From Rhodobacter sp. TJ_12 (lineage in GTDB: Bacteria > Pseudomonadota > Alphaproteobacteria > Rhodobacterales > Rhodobacteraceae), in the NCBI RefSeq assembly GCF_020023995.1, contig NZ_NRRD01000007.1, forward strand, positions 62,001 to 126,000: 64,000 bases of DNA. Reading direction: 5' to 3'. Within the stretch, counting starts at the first letter, position 1. Each line of letters opens with the position of its first letter. Below, one piece after another: positions 4,412-9,547 of the stretch. Both the position numbers and the translations under genes were made by a program. The notes under the pieces are model-generated. The model saw only the letters and a program-made list of their open reading frames with translations. It did no database searches and was not told the origin of the DNA.

Positions 4412-5392
4412 TTATTCCGCAGCGGCGGCAATAGCCGCTTGGGCCGCGGCAAGCGCGGCAGCGGCGGCCGCATTGGCTTTGGTCGCAGCTTCTTGCGCAG
4501 CGGTGGCGGCGGCAACAGCTTCGGCAACCGGGTCAACAGCGGCTTCTTCGACCGGGGCAGCTTCTTCGGCGGCGGGTTCTTCAGCAGCGGCTTCTTCGAC
4601 CGGGGCAGCTTCTTCGGCGGCCGGTTCTTCAGCCGCGGCTTCTTCGACCGGGGCAGCTTCTTCGGCGGCCGGTTCTTCAGCAGCGGCTTCTTCGACCGGG
4701 GCAGCTTCCTCAGCGGCCGGTTCTTCAGCAGCGGCTTCTTCGACCGGGGCAGCTTCCTCGGCGGCCGGCTCTTCAGCAGCGGCTTCTTCGACCGGGGCAG
4801 CTTCTTCGGCGGCCGGTTCTTCAGCAGCGGCTTCTTCGACCGGAGCAGCTTCTTCGGCGGCCGGTTCTTCAGCAGCGGCTTCTTCGACCGGGGCAGCTTC
4901 TTCGGCGGCCGGCTCTTCAGCAGCGGCTTCTTCGACCGGGGCAGCTTCTTCGGCGGCCGGCTCTTCAGCAACGGCTTCTTCGACCGGGGCAGCTTCCTCG
5001 GCGGCCGGCTCTTCAGCAGCGGCTTCTTCGACCGGAGCAGCTTCTTCGGCGGCCGGTTCTTCAGCAGCGGCTTCTTCGACCGGAGCAGCTTCTTCAGCGG
5101 CCGGCTCTTCAGCAGCGGCTTCTTCGACCGGAGCAGCTTCTTCGGCGGCGGGTTCTTCAGCCGCGGCTTCTTCGACCGGAGCAGCTTCTTCTTCGACCAC
5201 AGCCACGTCTTCGGCCGGCGCAGCAGCTTCTTCAGCCGGAGCAGCGGCGGGGGTCGGCGCGGTCACATAGTTGACCTCATATTTCGGAGCCGAGGCGCCA
5301 AGGACCGCCGCAAGGACGATGCCGCCGCCCAGAACGCTCAGCATCACCTTTTGGTTCTGCGGCAGATCTTTCCAGCTTTTCTTATCGCTCAT
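4412..5392 (-). CDS. Membrane-anchored Ala/Glu/Pro tandem-repeat protein
   Basis: 326 aa. Residues 1-17 are charged (MSDKKSWKDLPQ...), and residues 18-36 form one membrane segment (MLSVLGGGIVLAAVLGASA). From residue 68 to 275 there are 13 consecutive 16-residue units of EEAAPVEEAAAEEPAA with one Ala-to-Val change, then a partial unit and an Ala-rich tail (residues 287-326) likely to be helical or coiled. The start has a strong GGGGGG site 4-5 bases upstream, and a terminator follows. Long open frames exist in other frames only because the repeat has no stops. The composition suggests an extended, highly acidic stalk on the periplasmic or cytoplasmic side. No family was recognised and the function is unknown. 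Confidence 0.75.
   Translation of the reverse strand: MSDKKSWKDLPQNQKVMLSVLGGGIVLAAVLGASAPKYEVNYVTAPTPAAAPAEEAAAPAEDVAVVEEEAAPVEEAAAEEPAAEEAAPVEEAAAEEPAAEEAAPVEEAAAEEPAAEEAAPVEEAAAEEPAAEEAAPVEEAVAEEPAAEEAAPVEEAAAEEPAAEEAAPVEEAAAEEPAAEEAAPVEEAAAEEPAAEEAAPVEEAAAEEPAAEEAAPVEEAAAEEPAAEEAAPVEEAAAEEPAAEEAAPVEEAAAEEPAAEEAAPVEEAAAEEPAAEEAAPVEEAAVDPVAEAVAAATAAQEAATKANAAAAAALAAAQAAIAAAAE
4568..5191 (-). repeat. 13 tandem 48-bp coding repeats
   Basis: 624 bases, exactly 13 x 48, with a partial fourteenth copy towards 4540. Copies differ only at a few, mostly synonymous, positions (for example GCG/GCC and GAA/GAG changes) and one GCT-to-GTT type change. Because the unit is a multiple of three, gain or loss of copies would change protein length without a frameshift. 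Confidence 0.95.
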
Positions 5393-5613: not shown

Positions 5614-6153
5614 ATAGCCCGCAGACCGCACAATGCCCCGCCGCAACGCGACACCGGCCCCCGGATCAACGATCGCATCCGCGCGCCCGAAATCCGCCTG
5701 ATTGGCGCTGATGGCGAAAACGTGGGGGTGGTCACCCCGCAGCGCGCGATGATGATGGCGCAGGAAGCCGGCCTTGACCTCGTGGAAATCTCGCCCACCG
5801 CGACGCCGCCGGTGTGCAAGATTATGGACTACGGCAAGTTCAAGTATGAACAGCAGAAGAAAGAGGCCGAGGCGCGCAAAAAACAAAAGATCATCGAGGT
5901 CAAGGAAATCAAATTCCGCCCCGGCACCGACACGCATGATTATGACGTGAAGATGCGCTCGGTGATGAAATTCCTTGGCGAAGGCGACAAGGTGAAGGTC
6001 ACCTTGCGGTTCCGGGGCCGGGAAATGGCGCACCAAAGCCTTGGGCTGGAGTTGCTGAATCGCGTGGCCGCCGATGTCGGCGAGGCGGGCAAGGTCGAAA
6101 GCATGCCCAAGCTGGAAGGCCGCCAGATGGTGATGATGATCGCGCCGCGCTAA
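5614..6153 (+). CDS. infC: Translation initiation factor IF-3, AUA start
   Basis: 179 aa from the proposed start. IF-3 binds the 30S subunit and proofreads the start codon and initiator tRNA. The N-domain ([19 protein letters not shown]), the linker ([15 protein letters not shown]) and the C-domain ([16 protein letters not shown]) are all typical. The family N-terminus ([10 protein letters not shown]...) is preceded by an ATA codon at 5614 with AAGGAAG at 5601-5607, 8 bases before it from the AGGA core. No ATG, GTG or TTG fits this ribosome-binding site; the only in-frame ATG (5563) lies upstream of it. Rare AUU/AUA/AUC starts are a known autoregulatory feature of infC. The divergent repeat gene lies upstream and a terminator follows. 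Confidence 0.93.
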
Positions 6154-6342: not shown

Positions 6343-6930
6343 ATGCCCCTGATGACCCGCCGCACCGCCCTGTTGACCGGGGCCGCCAGTCTTTTCGCGC
6401 CTGTTTTGGCGCGCGCTGACACGCAAGATGTGCCGATGGCACAGCAGCCGGCGATCATCGCGCCTCCGCAACGCCATAATATCTCGTCCTTCCGCGAGAT
6501 CGACTGGCGCGACCATTTTCAGAATCTCGGCCGGGTGACGCTGATTGCCGATACCCGCTCCAAGGCGTTGCATTACTGGGCGGTAGAGGGGGCTGACTAT
6601 CGGGTGTTTCCGACCTCGGTGCCGAAATCGCCCGAACTGACGAAAACCGGCTATACCGAGATCGTGCGCAAGCGCGAAAACCCAAGCTGGACGCCCACCG
6701 CCTCGATGATCGCCGCCGATCCAAGCCTGCATCCGATGGAGCCGGGGCCAGATAACCCGCTGGGCACGCGGGCGATGTATCTTGGCTGGCCCGCCTATAT
6801 CATCCACGGCACCCATGACACGCGCAAGATTGGGCGCAAAAGTTCGTCGGGATGCATCGGTCTGTTCAATGCACAGGTCGAGGATCTGTATCCGCTGTGT
6901 CCGGTCGGCACGCAGGTGCTGATCTTGTAA
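6343..6930 (+). CDS. Secreted L,D-transpeptidase (YkuD family)
   Basis: 195 aa. The signal peptide contains a twin arginine (MTRRTALLTGAASLFAPVLARA), so Tat export is possible as well as Sec. The catalytic YkuD motif is complete: HGTHD with His155, then SSSGCIGLFN with nucleophile Cys171. Such enzymes form 3-3 cross-links in peptidoglycan or attach proteins to it in the periplasm. The start may be 6343 or the ATG at 6352; the latter puts the arginine pair near the N-terminus. The gene stands alone, followed by a two-way terminator. Confidence 0.9.
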   Translation: MPLMTRRTALLTGAASLFAPVLARADTQDVPMAQQPAIIAPPQRHNISSFREIDWRDHFQNLGRVTLIADTRSKALHYWAVEGADYRVFPTSVPKSPELTKTGYTEIVRKRENPSWTPTASMIAADPSLHPMEPGPDNPLGTRAMYLGWPAYIIHGTHDTRKIGRKSSSGCIGLFNAQVEDLYPLCPVGTQVLIL

Positions 6931-6949
6931 TGCAAGGGCCCTGAGCCAT

Positions 6950-6985
6950 AAAAATAAAGCGCTGCGGGAGGGAGGCCCGCAGCGC
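6950..6985 (-). terminator. Two-way terminator (sRNA and L,D-transpeptidase gene)
   Basis: The 10-bp perfect stem 6959-6968/6976-6985 is followed on the minus strand by TTTATTTTT and on the plus strand by GTTATTT. It can therefore end both the small RNA and the transpeptidase transcript. Confidence 0.85.
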
Positions 6986-7073
6986 GTTATTTGGAACCCG
7001 ACGAGGGAGAACGTCTGGGTTCTGCCACAGGTTTCGCTGGCTTGCGCCGTTTCAGGGAGATCCGAAACCCGAT
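6950..7073 (-). ncRNA. Candidate FNR-controlled small RNA with three CUCCCU loops
   Basis: About 124 nt, proposed from signals only. A -10 element TAGAAA (7084-7079) ends 5 bases before the A at 7073, and an FNR-type dyad is centred 40.5 bases upstream, the class II activator spacing. The RNA can fold into (1) GUUUC/GAAAC with loop GGAUCUCCCU, which competes with a longer GGUUUCG/CGAAACC stem; (2) GAACCC-A-GACG/CGUC-GGGUUC with loop UUCUCCCU; (3) a 10-bp stem GCGCUGCGGG/CCCGCAGCGC with loop CCUCCCU followed by UUUAUUUUU. All three loops carry CUCCCU, complementary to AGGGAG ribosome-binding sites. The pattern recalls alphaproteobacterial small RNAs with anti-Shine-Dalgarno loops (the suhB/ar14 type). 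No convincing reading frame was found inside it. Confidence 0.65.
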
Positions 7074-7106
7074 GGCCCTTTCTAGGCGGTGGGCGCGCCG
7101 AAGGAT

Positions 7107-7120
7107 TTGACCTAGGTCAA
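7107..7120 (-). promoter_or_regulatory. FNR/FnrL-type binding site
   Basis: TTGACCTAGGTCAA is a perfect 14-bp dyad matching the FNR half-site pattern TTGAY-N4-RTCAA. It lies between two convergent genes, so it serves neither. On the minus strand it sits at about -40.5 relative to the proposed start of the small RNA at 7073, with TAGAAA as -10. Confidence 0.65.
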
Positions 7121-7169
7121 GAATCTGTGACCGGGCGCTGCGACATTTTGGCGAAAGTCGCGGCGTTCG

Positions 7170-9395
7170 TCACAAGGCCTGCATCGCCAGCCGGATCGCG
7201 CGGTTGTCGCCGCGCGCAAGAACCCAATTCCCCAGCCGCCGCGCCAGCTTGATATGGCCCTTTTTCACGGCGCGCTCGAACAATTCGCGCTGATAGCGCG
7301 GGAAGTCGCGGCGTGCGCGCAGGTGGCGATAAAATTCGGCCTCGGTCAGCGTGCCATCCAGCGCGGCCAGAATGATCGGGCTTAAAATGCCCATCTGGTT
7401 GAGCGAGGATCCAAGCCGGTGTCCCAGCATCGAGGCGCGCAGCTTCATCACATTGGGCGCGGTGAAGCGGTCCGCATGGCCTTTGTCGAGCGGCTCATAG
7501 GGATCATAAAGCAGCACGACCCGGCGCGCCGCCCCCGAGACTTGCGCCGCATCGCCATATTTGCCGGAAAAATCCGCCTTCCAGACCACTTTGTAGCGGG
7601 TTTCAAAGGGCACGACGCTGCGATCCACCGTCGATTGCGGCGAGATGGTCACCACATCCGCGCCGGGGCAGGCGCCGCTGAATGCCGCCGCCGCATAGCC
7701 CCCCATCGAGGCTCCGTAAAACACCACGCGTTCGAATTGCGCAAAGAAACCCTCGGCGGCGAGCCGGTCGAATTCATCGCTTACCCAAGGGTCGCGATAC
7801 CAGGTCCAGCCGCCCGCCATCACGCCCAGCATCGACCAGCCCTGTTTTTCGATGAACTCAAACCCCCAAGGACGGCGGTCCTCGCGTTTCGTCATCGCGA
7901 TATCGAGATTGTCGAAGGTTACCACCAAGGTGCGCCCGCGCGGAATATACAAGAAACTATGCGCGCCATTGCCGGTGAAGAACCCCTTTGGCCCGGCCAG
8001 CGTGCGCGCCAAACTTTCCCATCCGTCATCTATGCCAGATTCGGCGCGCGGCGGATCGGGGGTGAACAGCACCCGGGTGTTCTTGCCGCCGCCTTCGCTT
8101 GTTTCTTGCAGCTTCTCGCAGCTGCCAAAGGCTTTGAGAAAGGGGAAACTGCCGGTGCCTTTGCGAATATCCATCAGCATCCGGCTGTCGGCATGCAACG
8201 CGCTGCGCAATACCGGCTCAAGGAATTTGACCTTGTTCACATCGCCAAAGCCCGACAGGTTCAGCAACAGATCGACCGGGCGCAGATCGGCCGCGCTTGC
8301 GACCACGCGAATACGATCTTGGGCGACGCCCGCCGCTTGCAAATGCGCGATATAGCCCGCGACCCAATCCGATGGGGTTTGGGCCCAACTGCCATCGGGG
8401 CGCAAATCGATCAGCGTGATATCGCAATCCCAGCGGTCATGCGCGGCCAACACCACGCTGGCCGCCGTGCCGCCCAGATCGGCCACCGATCCGACCTGTT
8501 CGAGCCCGGTGCGCGCCAGCAGTTCGGCACTGTTATCTTCGTCTTCATAGGTAAAGACCCGCCGTCCCCGGCTGCGGATCGGGGCAAATTCGGGCCGCAG
8601 CTCATGCTGACGCAACAGCTTTGCCAGATAGGAGCCTTCGGGCGGAAGACCGTTATAGCGAATGCCCAGTTCGCGCTTGTTCGAGGCCCATAGGTGGAGC
8701 GCGGTTGTCGCCTCGGTCAGACGTTCCTCCACCTTGATCGCCTTGCGGATCATCCGCAGCCGTTCGGGGAAGGGCACGGGATAAAACGCCTCCATCGGCT
8801 GCACCTTGTCGCCCAGACCGTAGGCGCGCACGAAATGGGTCACCATCGAGGGGCCCCAGACCCCCCAAGGTTGCTGGCTGACATGCACGGGCGTGCCTGC
8901 CGCCGCCGCCGCGGCATAGTCTTCGCGCAGGCCCCGGCGCAAGAATGGCGGGATCGCATAGCGATCGGCGGTAAACTCTAGCATCGCGTGCAAAAGCTCG
9001 CTGTCGGCGGGCAGGCCCAGCACCGCATTGTTCACCCGGTCGCTGTCGGGCAGTTCATAGCCCATGACATAATCGCTGTCGTAATCCATGGGGCGGTGGC
9101 AATAGACATCGGTATCGACCCAGATCATGCCGGGGTTTTGCGCGATCATGTGCAGCCGGAACCAATCGGCAAAAAGCGCGTAGCTGTTCTTCTTTTCGTA
9201 TTTGATGAAATCGTCGGTATCGATGATTTCGCGCCCGTCGCGCAAGATCACGCCCTCGGGCACATTGGGAATGTCTTCATAGGCAAAGAGGGTGATCTTT
9301 TGGCCCGCATCGACAAAGCTTTTCAGGCAAAGCTGTTCCATCCAGCTGAGCGCCCCGCCGATCCAGAGCGTTCCGACTTCGCGTTCTCGTGCCAT
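7170..9395 (-). CDS. Three-part glycosyltransferase / Rossmann-like / hydrolase-fold protein
   Basis: 741 aa from the ATG at 9395 (site CAGGTGAGC). Residues 1-250: a glycosyltransferase of the DXD sugar-binding type, with the segment FADWFRLHMIAQNPG followed by the metal-binding WVDTDVY (Asp-Thr-Asp at 94-96). Residues 270-450: a Rossmann-like segment (VADLGGTAASVVLAA) resembling an SAM-methyltransferase core. Residues 460-700: a hydrolase-fold segment with FYGASMGGYAAAAFS, whose Ser563 sits in a GxSxG context, and a later YDP...LDKGHA. That last part is paralogous to the whole protein at 13277. No membrane segments or signal were seen, so it probably acts in the cytosol on a cell-surface glycan or its precursor. 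It is divergent from the glycosyltransferase at 9548. The substrate is unknown. Confidence 0.75.
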   Translation of the reverse strand: MAREREVGTLWIGGALSWMEQLCLKSFVDAGQKITLFAYEDIPNVPEGVILRDGREIIDTDDFIKYEKKNSYALFADWFRLHMIAQNPGMIWVDTDVYCHRPMDYDSDYVMGYELPDSDRVNNAVLGLPADSELLHAMLEFTADRYAIPPFLRRGLREDYAAAAAAGTPVHVSQQPWGVWGPSMVTHFVRAYGLGDKVQPMEAFYPVPFPERLRMIRKAIKVEERLTEATTALHLWASNKRELGIRYNGLPPEGSYLAKLLRQHELRPEFAPIRSRGRRVFTYEDEDNSAELLARTGLEQVGSVADLGGTAASVVLAAHDRWDCDITLIDLRPDGSWAQTPSDWVAGYIAHLQAAGVAQDRIRVVASAADLRPVDLLLNLSGFGDVNKVKFLEPVLRSALHADSRMLMDIRKGTGSFPFLKAFGSCEKLQETSEGGGKNTRVLFTPDPPRAESGIDDGWESLARTLAGPKGFFTGNGAHSFLYIPRGRTLVVTFDNLDIAMTKREDRRPWGFEFIEKQGWSMLGVMAGGWTWYRDPWVSDEFDRLAAEGFFAQFERVVFYGASMGGYAAAAFSGACPGADVVTISPQSTVDRSVVPFETRYKVVWKADFSGKYGDAAQVSGAARRVVLLYDPYEPLDKGHADRFTAPNVMKLRASMLGHRLGSSLNQMGILSPIILAALDGTLTEAEFYRHLRARRDFPRYQRELFERAVKKGHIKLARRLGNWVLARGDNRAIRLAMQAL

Positions 9396-9547
9396 GCTCA
9401 CCTGCCCGTTTGATTGCCGCCACATTGCCAAAGAGCGCGCGCCATTCCAACGCTAAAGCGCGAGACTGCAAAGCGATGTGCTTTGGCGGCAGGGCTTTGC
9501 GGGGCGCGGCGGGGCTGGTAGGAAGGAGCAAACGACCGGAGACGCGC

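Follow-up and report, generated by a model that had tools for sequence, protein, structure and literature searches.

What does the gap between two convergent genes of Rhodobacter sp. TJ_12 encode, given that an FNR-type dyad, a possible transcription start and a terminator-like hairpin all lie within it? We analyzed this locus in the window (the whole 64,000-nt stretch of DNA, to which the coordinates below refer unless stated otherwise) and in related genomes. The reading we prefer, to which we assign a probability of about 0.78, is a stand-alone, trans-acting small RNA (sRNA) that would be driven by FnrL and RegA, made at low oxygen, and able to block ribosome-binding sites (RBSs) of the AGGGAG type. 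The features of the locus are as follows.

5665–6153, plus strand: Pfam-matched part only of infC (IF-3; PF00707, PF05198), syntenic
6343–6930, plus strand: gene for a YkuD L,D-transpeptidase (Pfam PF03734), convergent with the RNA
6950–7073, minus strand: predicted sRNA of about 124 nt, with the putative 5' end at A7073 and the 3' end at the U tract
6950–6958, minus strand: terminator U tract UUUAUUUUU, from the sequence and a terminator scan
6959–6985, minus strand: stem-loop 3, the terminator, with the loop CCUCCCU at 6969–6975
6994–7022, minus strand: stem-loop 2, with the 8-nt loop UUCUCCCU at 7004–7011
7028–7071, minus strand: stem-loop 1, its outer helix pairing 7063–7071 with 7028–7036, its inner hairpin of 3 bp
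7054–7059, minus strand: CUCCCU of stem-loop 1, sited in an internal loop
7079–7084, minus strand: -10 element TAGAAA, from the sequence
7107–7120, palindromic: FNR dyad TTGACCTAGGTCAA, at a class II position
7140–7154, minus strand: RegA/PrrA-like site TCGCCAAAATGTCGC, with TGTCGCA at 7139–7145
7170–9431, minus strand: upstream gene for a 753-aa protein, on the same strand as the RNA

The minus strand encodes a predicted RNA with three stem-loops

An earlier note on this DNA, made from the sequence alone, had proposed that the minus-strand transcript is folded, and the calculated fold bears this out. The RNA from 6945 to 7073 (129 nt) has a minimum free energy of -54.2 kcal/mol and a z-score of -4.06, and none of 200 shuffled sequences was as stable. 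The terminator that the note had described is present as a 10-bp stem with a 7-nt loop and the tail TTTATTTTT. Its description of three exposed CUCCCU loops stands in part: all three motifs are unpaired in the centroid fold, but a large internal loop, not a terminal one, holds the first.

The gene is single-copy in the TJ_12 genome, as judged by sequence and by a search with R2, a covariance model that we built on 17 sequences found by blastn. R2 matches the window at 6947–7075 with 133.6 bits, the window itself being in its building set. No convincing paralogs were found in the genome; the next score, 19.2 bits, is the same locus read in antisense, followed by matches of 16.9 bits (a place that we inspected), 13.9 bits and 13.5 bits. 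An Rfam scan of the 64-kb window gave no family at its gathering threshold.

Homologs of the RNA are found across a part of the Rhodobacteraceae

A blastn search with the 186-nt region gave a match in 17 of 61 genomes, with 15 of 18 in the genus (TJ_12 included), 2 of 19 in other genera of the family, and none of 24 in other families. The three genus genomes with no blastn match are G001 (81% complete), G003 and G016. Every one of the 17 loci has the FNR dyad, three CTCCCT segments and the terminator. Among 394 family genomes R2 found a match in 26 at E ≤ 0.001, ten of them with at least 70 bits. We also scanned the contigs of 84,980 species genomes for the dyad, CTCCC and CTCCCTCNCGC at set distances. 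This pattern scan returned 43 loci, and 39 have an R2 score of at least 26.7 bits; the other four (L058, L068, L070 and L081) have no R2 match and are probably due to chance.

The 31 pattern loci that score at least 70 bits, together with the window, are referred to as the core homologs (n = 32). Their hosts include Rhodobacter capsulatus, R. viridis, R. aestuarii and R. maris, and members of Sinirhodobacter, Thioclava, Phaeovulum, Defluviimonas, Frigidibacter, Pseudothioclava and Sedimentimonas. Diverged copies (26.7–53.4 bits) are present in Solirhodobacter, Gemmobacter, Cypionkella and Tabrizicola. A plasmid collection yielded a single match of 36 bases, which is uninformative. In R. sphaeroides 2.4.1 the best R2 match has 14.7 bits and an E-value of 1.75, which is not significant, and the 7 kb around infC contain no dyad and no convincing match, the top score with filters off being 9.6 bits. 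This genome (G091) was assigned to strain 2.4.1 by its PufX, which is the same as PDB 2nrg over 81 residues. Since R. sphaeroides shows no copy, the RNA is not required for FnrL-regulated anaerobic life in the family.

The stems covary while the loops stay constant

We assessed base-pair covariation in two alignments. The first is a MAFFT alignment of the 17 blastn sequences, made without fitting to the structure. In it 13 of the 35 pairs vary on both sides, amounting to 33 cells; none of 500 shuffles reached this value, and control alignments with slid pairs gave at most 12 cells. The second alignment, A4, was built by aligning all 32 core homologs with the model and, being fitted to the structure, leans towards it. 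Here 20 of 35 pairs are changed on both sides (112 cells, reached in none of 500 shuffles and at most 28 in slid controls), and 93.1% of cells are paired. The shuffle control ignores relatedness. Within A4 the changes are spread over stem 1, where 9 of 10 pairs of the outer helix are changed on both sides, and stem 2, with 8 of 10. Stem 3 (columns 113–131) has one pair of ten that changes, from U-A to C-G or A-U, and eight that are invariant.

CUCCC is present in all three loops of all 32 core homologs, a constancy that in model-found sequences arises partly by construction. Conservation of the dyad, loops and stems, with compensatory changes, was the check that the earlier note had proposed for this gene, and the locus passes it, with 20 of 35 pairs so changed and the loops kept in 32 of 32. 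One extra CTCCC occurs in 10 of the 32, within the small inner hairpin of stem 1. In L026–L030, L062, L069, L079, L054 and L076 this inner hairpin carries a fourth exposed anti-Shine-Dalgarno segment.

An FNR dyad stands at a class II position

TTGACCTAGGTCAA is the sole TTGAC-N4-GTCAA sequence in the 64-kb window, where 0.01 would be expected, and its presence at 7107–7120 confirms what had been claimed for it. The -10 element TAGAAA (7079–7084) and the start A (7073) proposed with it are found on the minus strand, and the dyad is centered at -40.5 relative to A7073. A generic sigma-70 scan of 6700–7400 found no promoter; a class II FNR promoter can do without a good -35 box. In most homologs, hexamers of the TAGAA, TATCA and TATTC types can be seen by eye at the place of the -10 element.

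The class II spacing also proposed is a property of the family. The distance from the dyad center to the model start is 38 nt in 2 core homologs, 39 nt in 22 and 40 nt in 8; at 39 nt the dyad center is at -41.5, counted from the base that aligns with A7073. The dyad thereby sits near -41.5, as at FNR-activated promoters, when counted from this putative start site. Because the 43 pattern loci were preselected for the dyad and CTCCC, the independent test of the dyad is given by matches found with R2 only, a search that made no use of the promoter. A dyad lies 38–40 nt upstream of the model start in all ten strong matches of this kind (at least 70 bits). Among the 16 weak ones, eight have TTGA-N6-TCAA within 110 nt upstream, against an expectation of 0.04 for all 16 calculated from the DNA flanking these loci (one dyad in 42,093 bases); its distance to the model start, whose placement is loose, is 12 to 97 nt. 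The remaining eight weak matches lack a dyad over those 110 nt.

A second fixed promoter element resembles RegA sites

The earlier note had missed a second fixed element of the promoter, TGTCGCA. Measured from start to start, it lies 25 nt upstream of the dyad in 30 of the 32 core homologs and 24 nt upstream in the other two; among eight diverged pattern loci it is found at that spacing in one (L050). Two sites from R. capsulatus RegA ChIP-seq, CTGCCAAAATGTCGC (peak 17) and CGGACAAAATGTCGC (peak 27), are listed in Table 2 of PMC5359404. By eye, identity to the listed CTGCCAAAATGTCGC is 13/15 in the window, 14/15 in R. capsulatus, and 15/15 in R. viridis and Pseudothioclava. By its sequence match to RegA ChIP sites, the locus probably shares with PcrZ the trait of a RegA/PrrA site in the promoter. 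Because the fixed TGTCGCA matches such sites, FnrL and RegA probably act jointly at the RNA promoter.

The pattern CCAAAATGTCGCA has one exact occurrence in the genome, at the RNA promoter, and occurs with at most one mismatch in 13 places, against 3 for the reversed pattern. The layout TGTCGCA-N17..19-dyad is found in 56 places in 48 of 394 Rhodobacteraceae genomes, and its reversed pattern in 4 places, hinting at a general RegA-FNR promoter layout. Many of these places have N19, not N18. The TJ_12 genome itself has a second RegA-like site and FNR dyad with identical spacing (G000:C4:26845-26883, locus L173). The gene that follows it has a product with two CxxCH motifs, likely, by eye, a di-haem cytochrome c peroxidase, and Table 1 of PMC4634722 lists ccpA among the FnrL targets of R. 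capsulatus.

The gene neighborhood argues for a stand-alone gene

Adjacency to infC and a wider FNR-linked set had, like the RegA-like site, escaped the earlier note. infC is downstream of the RNA and convergent in 24 of 39 pattern loci, and a YkuD match is downstream in 11 of 39. L063 has its infC match upstream of the RNA, and the remaining loci have no infC match, partly because of short surrounding DNA. These neighbors bear on another explanation, in which the convergent YkuD gene would simply end here in a bidirectional terminator and the FNR dyad would be incidental or serve something else. The hairpin does score as a possible terminator in both orientations, the T run of the plus strand being the weaker one. 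We nevertheless regard this explanation as very improbable, since two more covarying stem-loops lie upstream of the terminator, the dyad and RegA-like site stand at near-fixed spacing to the RNA start, and the RNA and its promoter are kept in 11 loci that have infC within 300 nt and no YkuD match.

The 753-aa protein encoded upstream has no Pfam match at E ≤ 0.001. Its start looks glycosyltransferase-like by eye, and the protein is matched upstream of the RNA in many relatives. Its gene raises a second alternative, that the RNA is derived from the 3' UTR of the upstream-gene mRNA (7170–9431), as R. sphaeroides CcsR and SorX are from theirs. In its favor, the upstream gene is co-directional with the RNA in the window and 11 of 39 relatives, and its end lies about 90–230 nt before the RNA. 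We judge it highly unlikely all the same: a complete promoter with near-fixed spacing separates the gene from the RNA, and the nearest match to the upstream gene in L069, L079 and L085 is more than 1 kb away. In R. capsulatus the long upstream ORF (L067 3255–4439) is on the opposite strand and divergent from the RNA, so the RNA needs its own promoter there. A stand-alone gene remains the preferred reading. The anatomy of the gene, its conservation, covariation and synteny, and the recurrence of FNR and RegA-like sites can all be read directly from the DNA. Also near infC, positions 4412–5392 of the window (minus strand) encode a low-complexity protein of AEEPAAEEAAPVEEA repeats, and R. capsulatus (L067) likewise has an alanine-, proline- and glutamate-rich frame near infC.

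Comparison with known small RNAs

The closest studied RNA is NfeR1 (Smr14C2) of the ar14 family (Rfam RF02344), to which the ‘cuckoo’ RNAs are related. NfeR1 is 123 nt long with three hairpins, each with an unpaired anti-Shine-Dalgarno motif, and the stems of ar14/NfeR1 RNAs vary while the loops are fixed, as described in PMC10746234 and PMC7143759. The TJ_12 RNA is alike in having three hairpins with an anti-Shine-Dalgarno segment unpaired in each, the first in an internal loop. It differs in that the ar14 model scores the window at 27.5 bits, well below the gathering cut-off of 58.8 bits. Over 20 loci the ar14 scores are 26–31.5 bits, and the full-length model aligns to 8 of the 20 at E ≤ 1, below threshold. 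The ultraconserved CCUCCUCCC of ar14 is absent from the whole window and from all 32 homologs, the motif here being CUCCCU. The promoters also differ, with FNR and RegA-like sites here, whereas NfeR1 is reported to be LsrB-activated and NtrC-repressed (PMC10746234). Of the family resemblance first suggested, the likeness to ar14 therefore holds by motif only; that to suhB failed, as RF00519 is not among the Rfam matches listed for 6800–7200 even at E ≤ 10.

Three other systems share single traits with this RNA. PcrZ of R. sphaeroides is described as an sRNA with its own promoter (PMC6238624), whose induction at low oxygen needs PrrA, the RegA ortholog, and FnrL, the latter perhaps indirectly (PMC8139620). 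The 136 nt at the coordinate published in PMC6238624 contain no CUCCC and have a different fold; by eye, the 141 nt before PcrZ are without an FNR dyad, and one dyad lies about 50 nt past its end. We rejected identity with PcrZ because of these differences and because the best R2 match in R. sphaeroides, 14.7 bits, is elsewhere. As PcrZ differs in sequence and fold, it is an analogue in regulation (PrrA, FnrL) and not a homolog. RSs2461 was rejected as a candidate for PcrZ; it is SorX according to a published paper.

CcsR1–4 (RSs0680a–d) of R. sphaeroides have two hairpins with anti-Shine-Dalgarno loops (PMC3927594) and are reported to be processed from the 3' UTR of the ccaF1 precursor (PMC8307010). 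The TJ_12 RNA resembles them as a Rhodobacteraceae RNA with anti-Shine-Dalgarno hairpin loops, but it has three stem-loops and a predicted FNR promoter, and both the conservation of that promoter and the divergent ORF in R. capsulatus speak against 3'-UTR processing of the CcsR type. FnrS of E. coli, which is described as under direct FNR regulation in anaerobic conditions (PMC4263372), is similar as an sRNA gene with an FNR site, a likeness by description and not by sequence; FnrS is not among the Rfam matches listed for the window or for 6800–7200. Outside an R. capsulatus sRNA survey and the work on the cuckoo family, our literature search found no paper describing this RNA; the R. capsulatus copy may have been detected previously. 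Neither small RNA, non-coding RNA nor infC is mentioned in the main text of the transcriptome paper on RegA, FnrL and CrtJ in R. capsulatus.

Proposed action and candidate targets

The best reading of these likenesses is an NfeR1-type mechanism placed under oxygen control. FnrL at its class II site (about -41) would activate the promoter, with RegA acting at its site about 25 nt further upstream, so that the sRNA would be transcribed at low oxygen. The transcript would form three stem-loops and end at the intrinsic terminator. The invariant CUCCC segment in each stem-loop (CUCCCU here) would then pair with AGGGAG-type Shine-Dalgarno sequences, and this pairing would keep ribosomes from loading onto a group of mRNAs, in the manner of the NfeR1/ar14 RNAs of rhizobia. 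NfeR1 is reported to silence ntrB with anti-Shine-Dalgarno segments that cover its ribosome-binding site (PMC10746234). For the TJ_12 RNA we infer transcription, the oxygen response, binding by FnrL and RegA, RBS blocking and the identity of targets from the DNA.

Protein-sequestering RNAs also show repeated short motifs in single-stranded loops. The RNA might alternatively work chiefly as a sponge, its repeated CUCCC loops capturing an RNA-binding protein instead of pairing with mRNAs. One short motif repeated in at least three single-stranded loops fits this idea, as does the report that CcaF1 of R. sphaeroides enriches PcrZ (PMC10253847). We consider it unlikely, given that the motif is complementary at every base to a type of RBS in use in the TJ_12 genome and that NfeR1 is described as acting by RBS pairing (PMC10746234).

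Pairing with mRNAs, which we favor, would have ample opportunity. AGGGAGA-N3-9-ATG occurs in 45 places in the genome and its reversed pattern in 2, so AGGGAGA is in use as an RBS type and could offer the RNA numerous partners. For the 42 of these 45 candidates that have a frame of at least 40 codons, the duplex energies of the best 14 lie close together, from -22.7 to -20.5 kcal/mol. RBS patterns complementary to loops 1 and 2 are present in all 18 genus genomes, with 67 + 88 = 155 places listed and the downstream gene inspected at 60 loci. The search in TJ_12 and the 18 genus genomes pinned down no target. At the 60 loci the largest recurring groups, by eye, are a malic-enzyme-like gene (4) and a cysteine-synthase-like gene (3), followed by an ABC transporter (3, two being the same place) and four pairs.

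Work on how oxygen controls photosynthesis and respiration uses R. capsulatus, one of the core hosts, as a model. FnrL ChIP-seq in this species is reported to give 34 of 82 peaks without a changed neighbor gene, in a regulon of 807 genes (PMC4634722). An RNA driven by FnrL and RegA could explain one unassigned FnrL peak and some of the indirect regulation. The comparison with rhizobia suggests that anti-Shine-Dalgarno hairpin RNAs have come under regulators that differ from one alphaproteobacterial order to another, with control by nitrogen in rhizobia and by oxygen here.

A possible wider class of RNAs

Eight diverged R2 matches with an upstream FNR dyad (L034, L035, L036, L038, L039, L043, L046 and L047) may represent a wider family with drifting stems. 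Most of them have several hairpins and anti-Shine-Dalgarno-like loops, and L036 is also near infC. We tentatively suggest, at rather less than even odds, that the Rhodobacteraceae share a wide, fast-evolving RNA class of which the RNA described here would be the best-conserved branch. Its members would be FNR-driven, with RegA too in the core lineage, would have at least three hairpins with drifting stems and fixed anti-Shine-Dalgarno loops, and would broadly restrain the translation of mRNAs with AGGGAG-type RBSs under anaerobic conditions. Such a class, if real, would tie the ribosome's choice of message directly to oxygen. The weak R. sphaeroides match of 14.7 bits (L104, about 1530–1590; chromosome 1 near 957,684) has, by eye, hairpins with CUCCCUCG loops directly after an apparent gene end.
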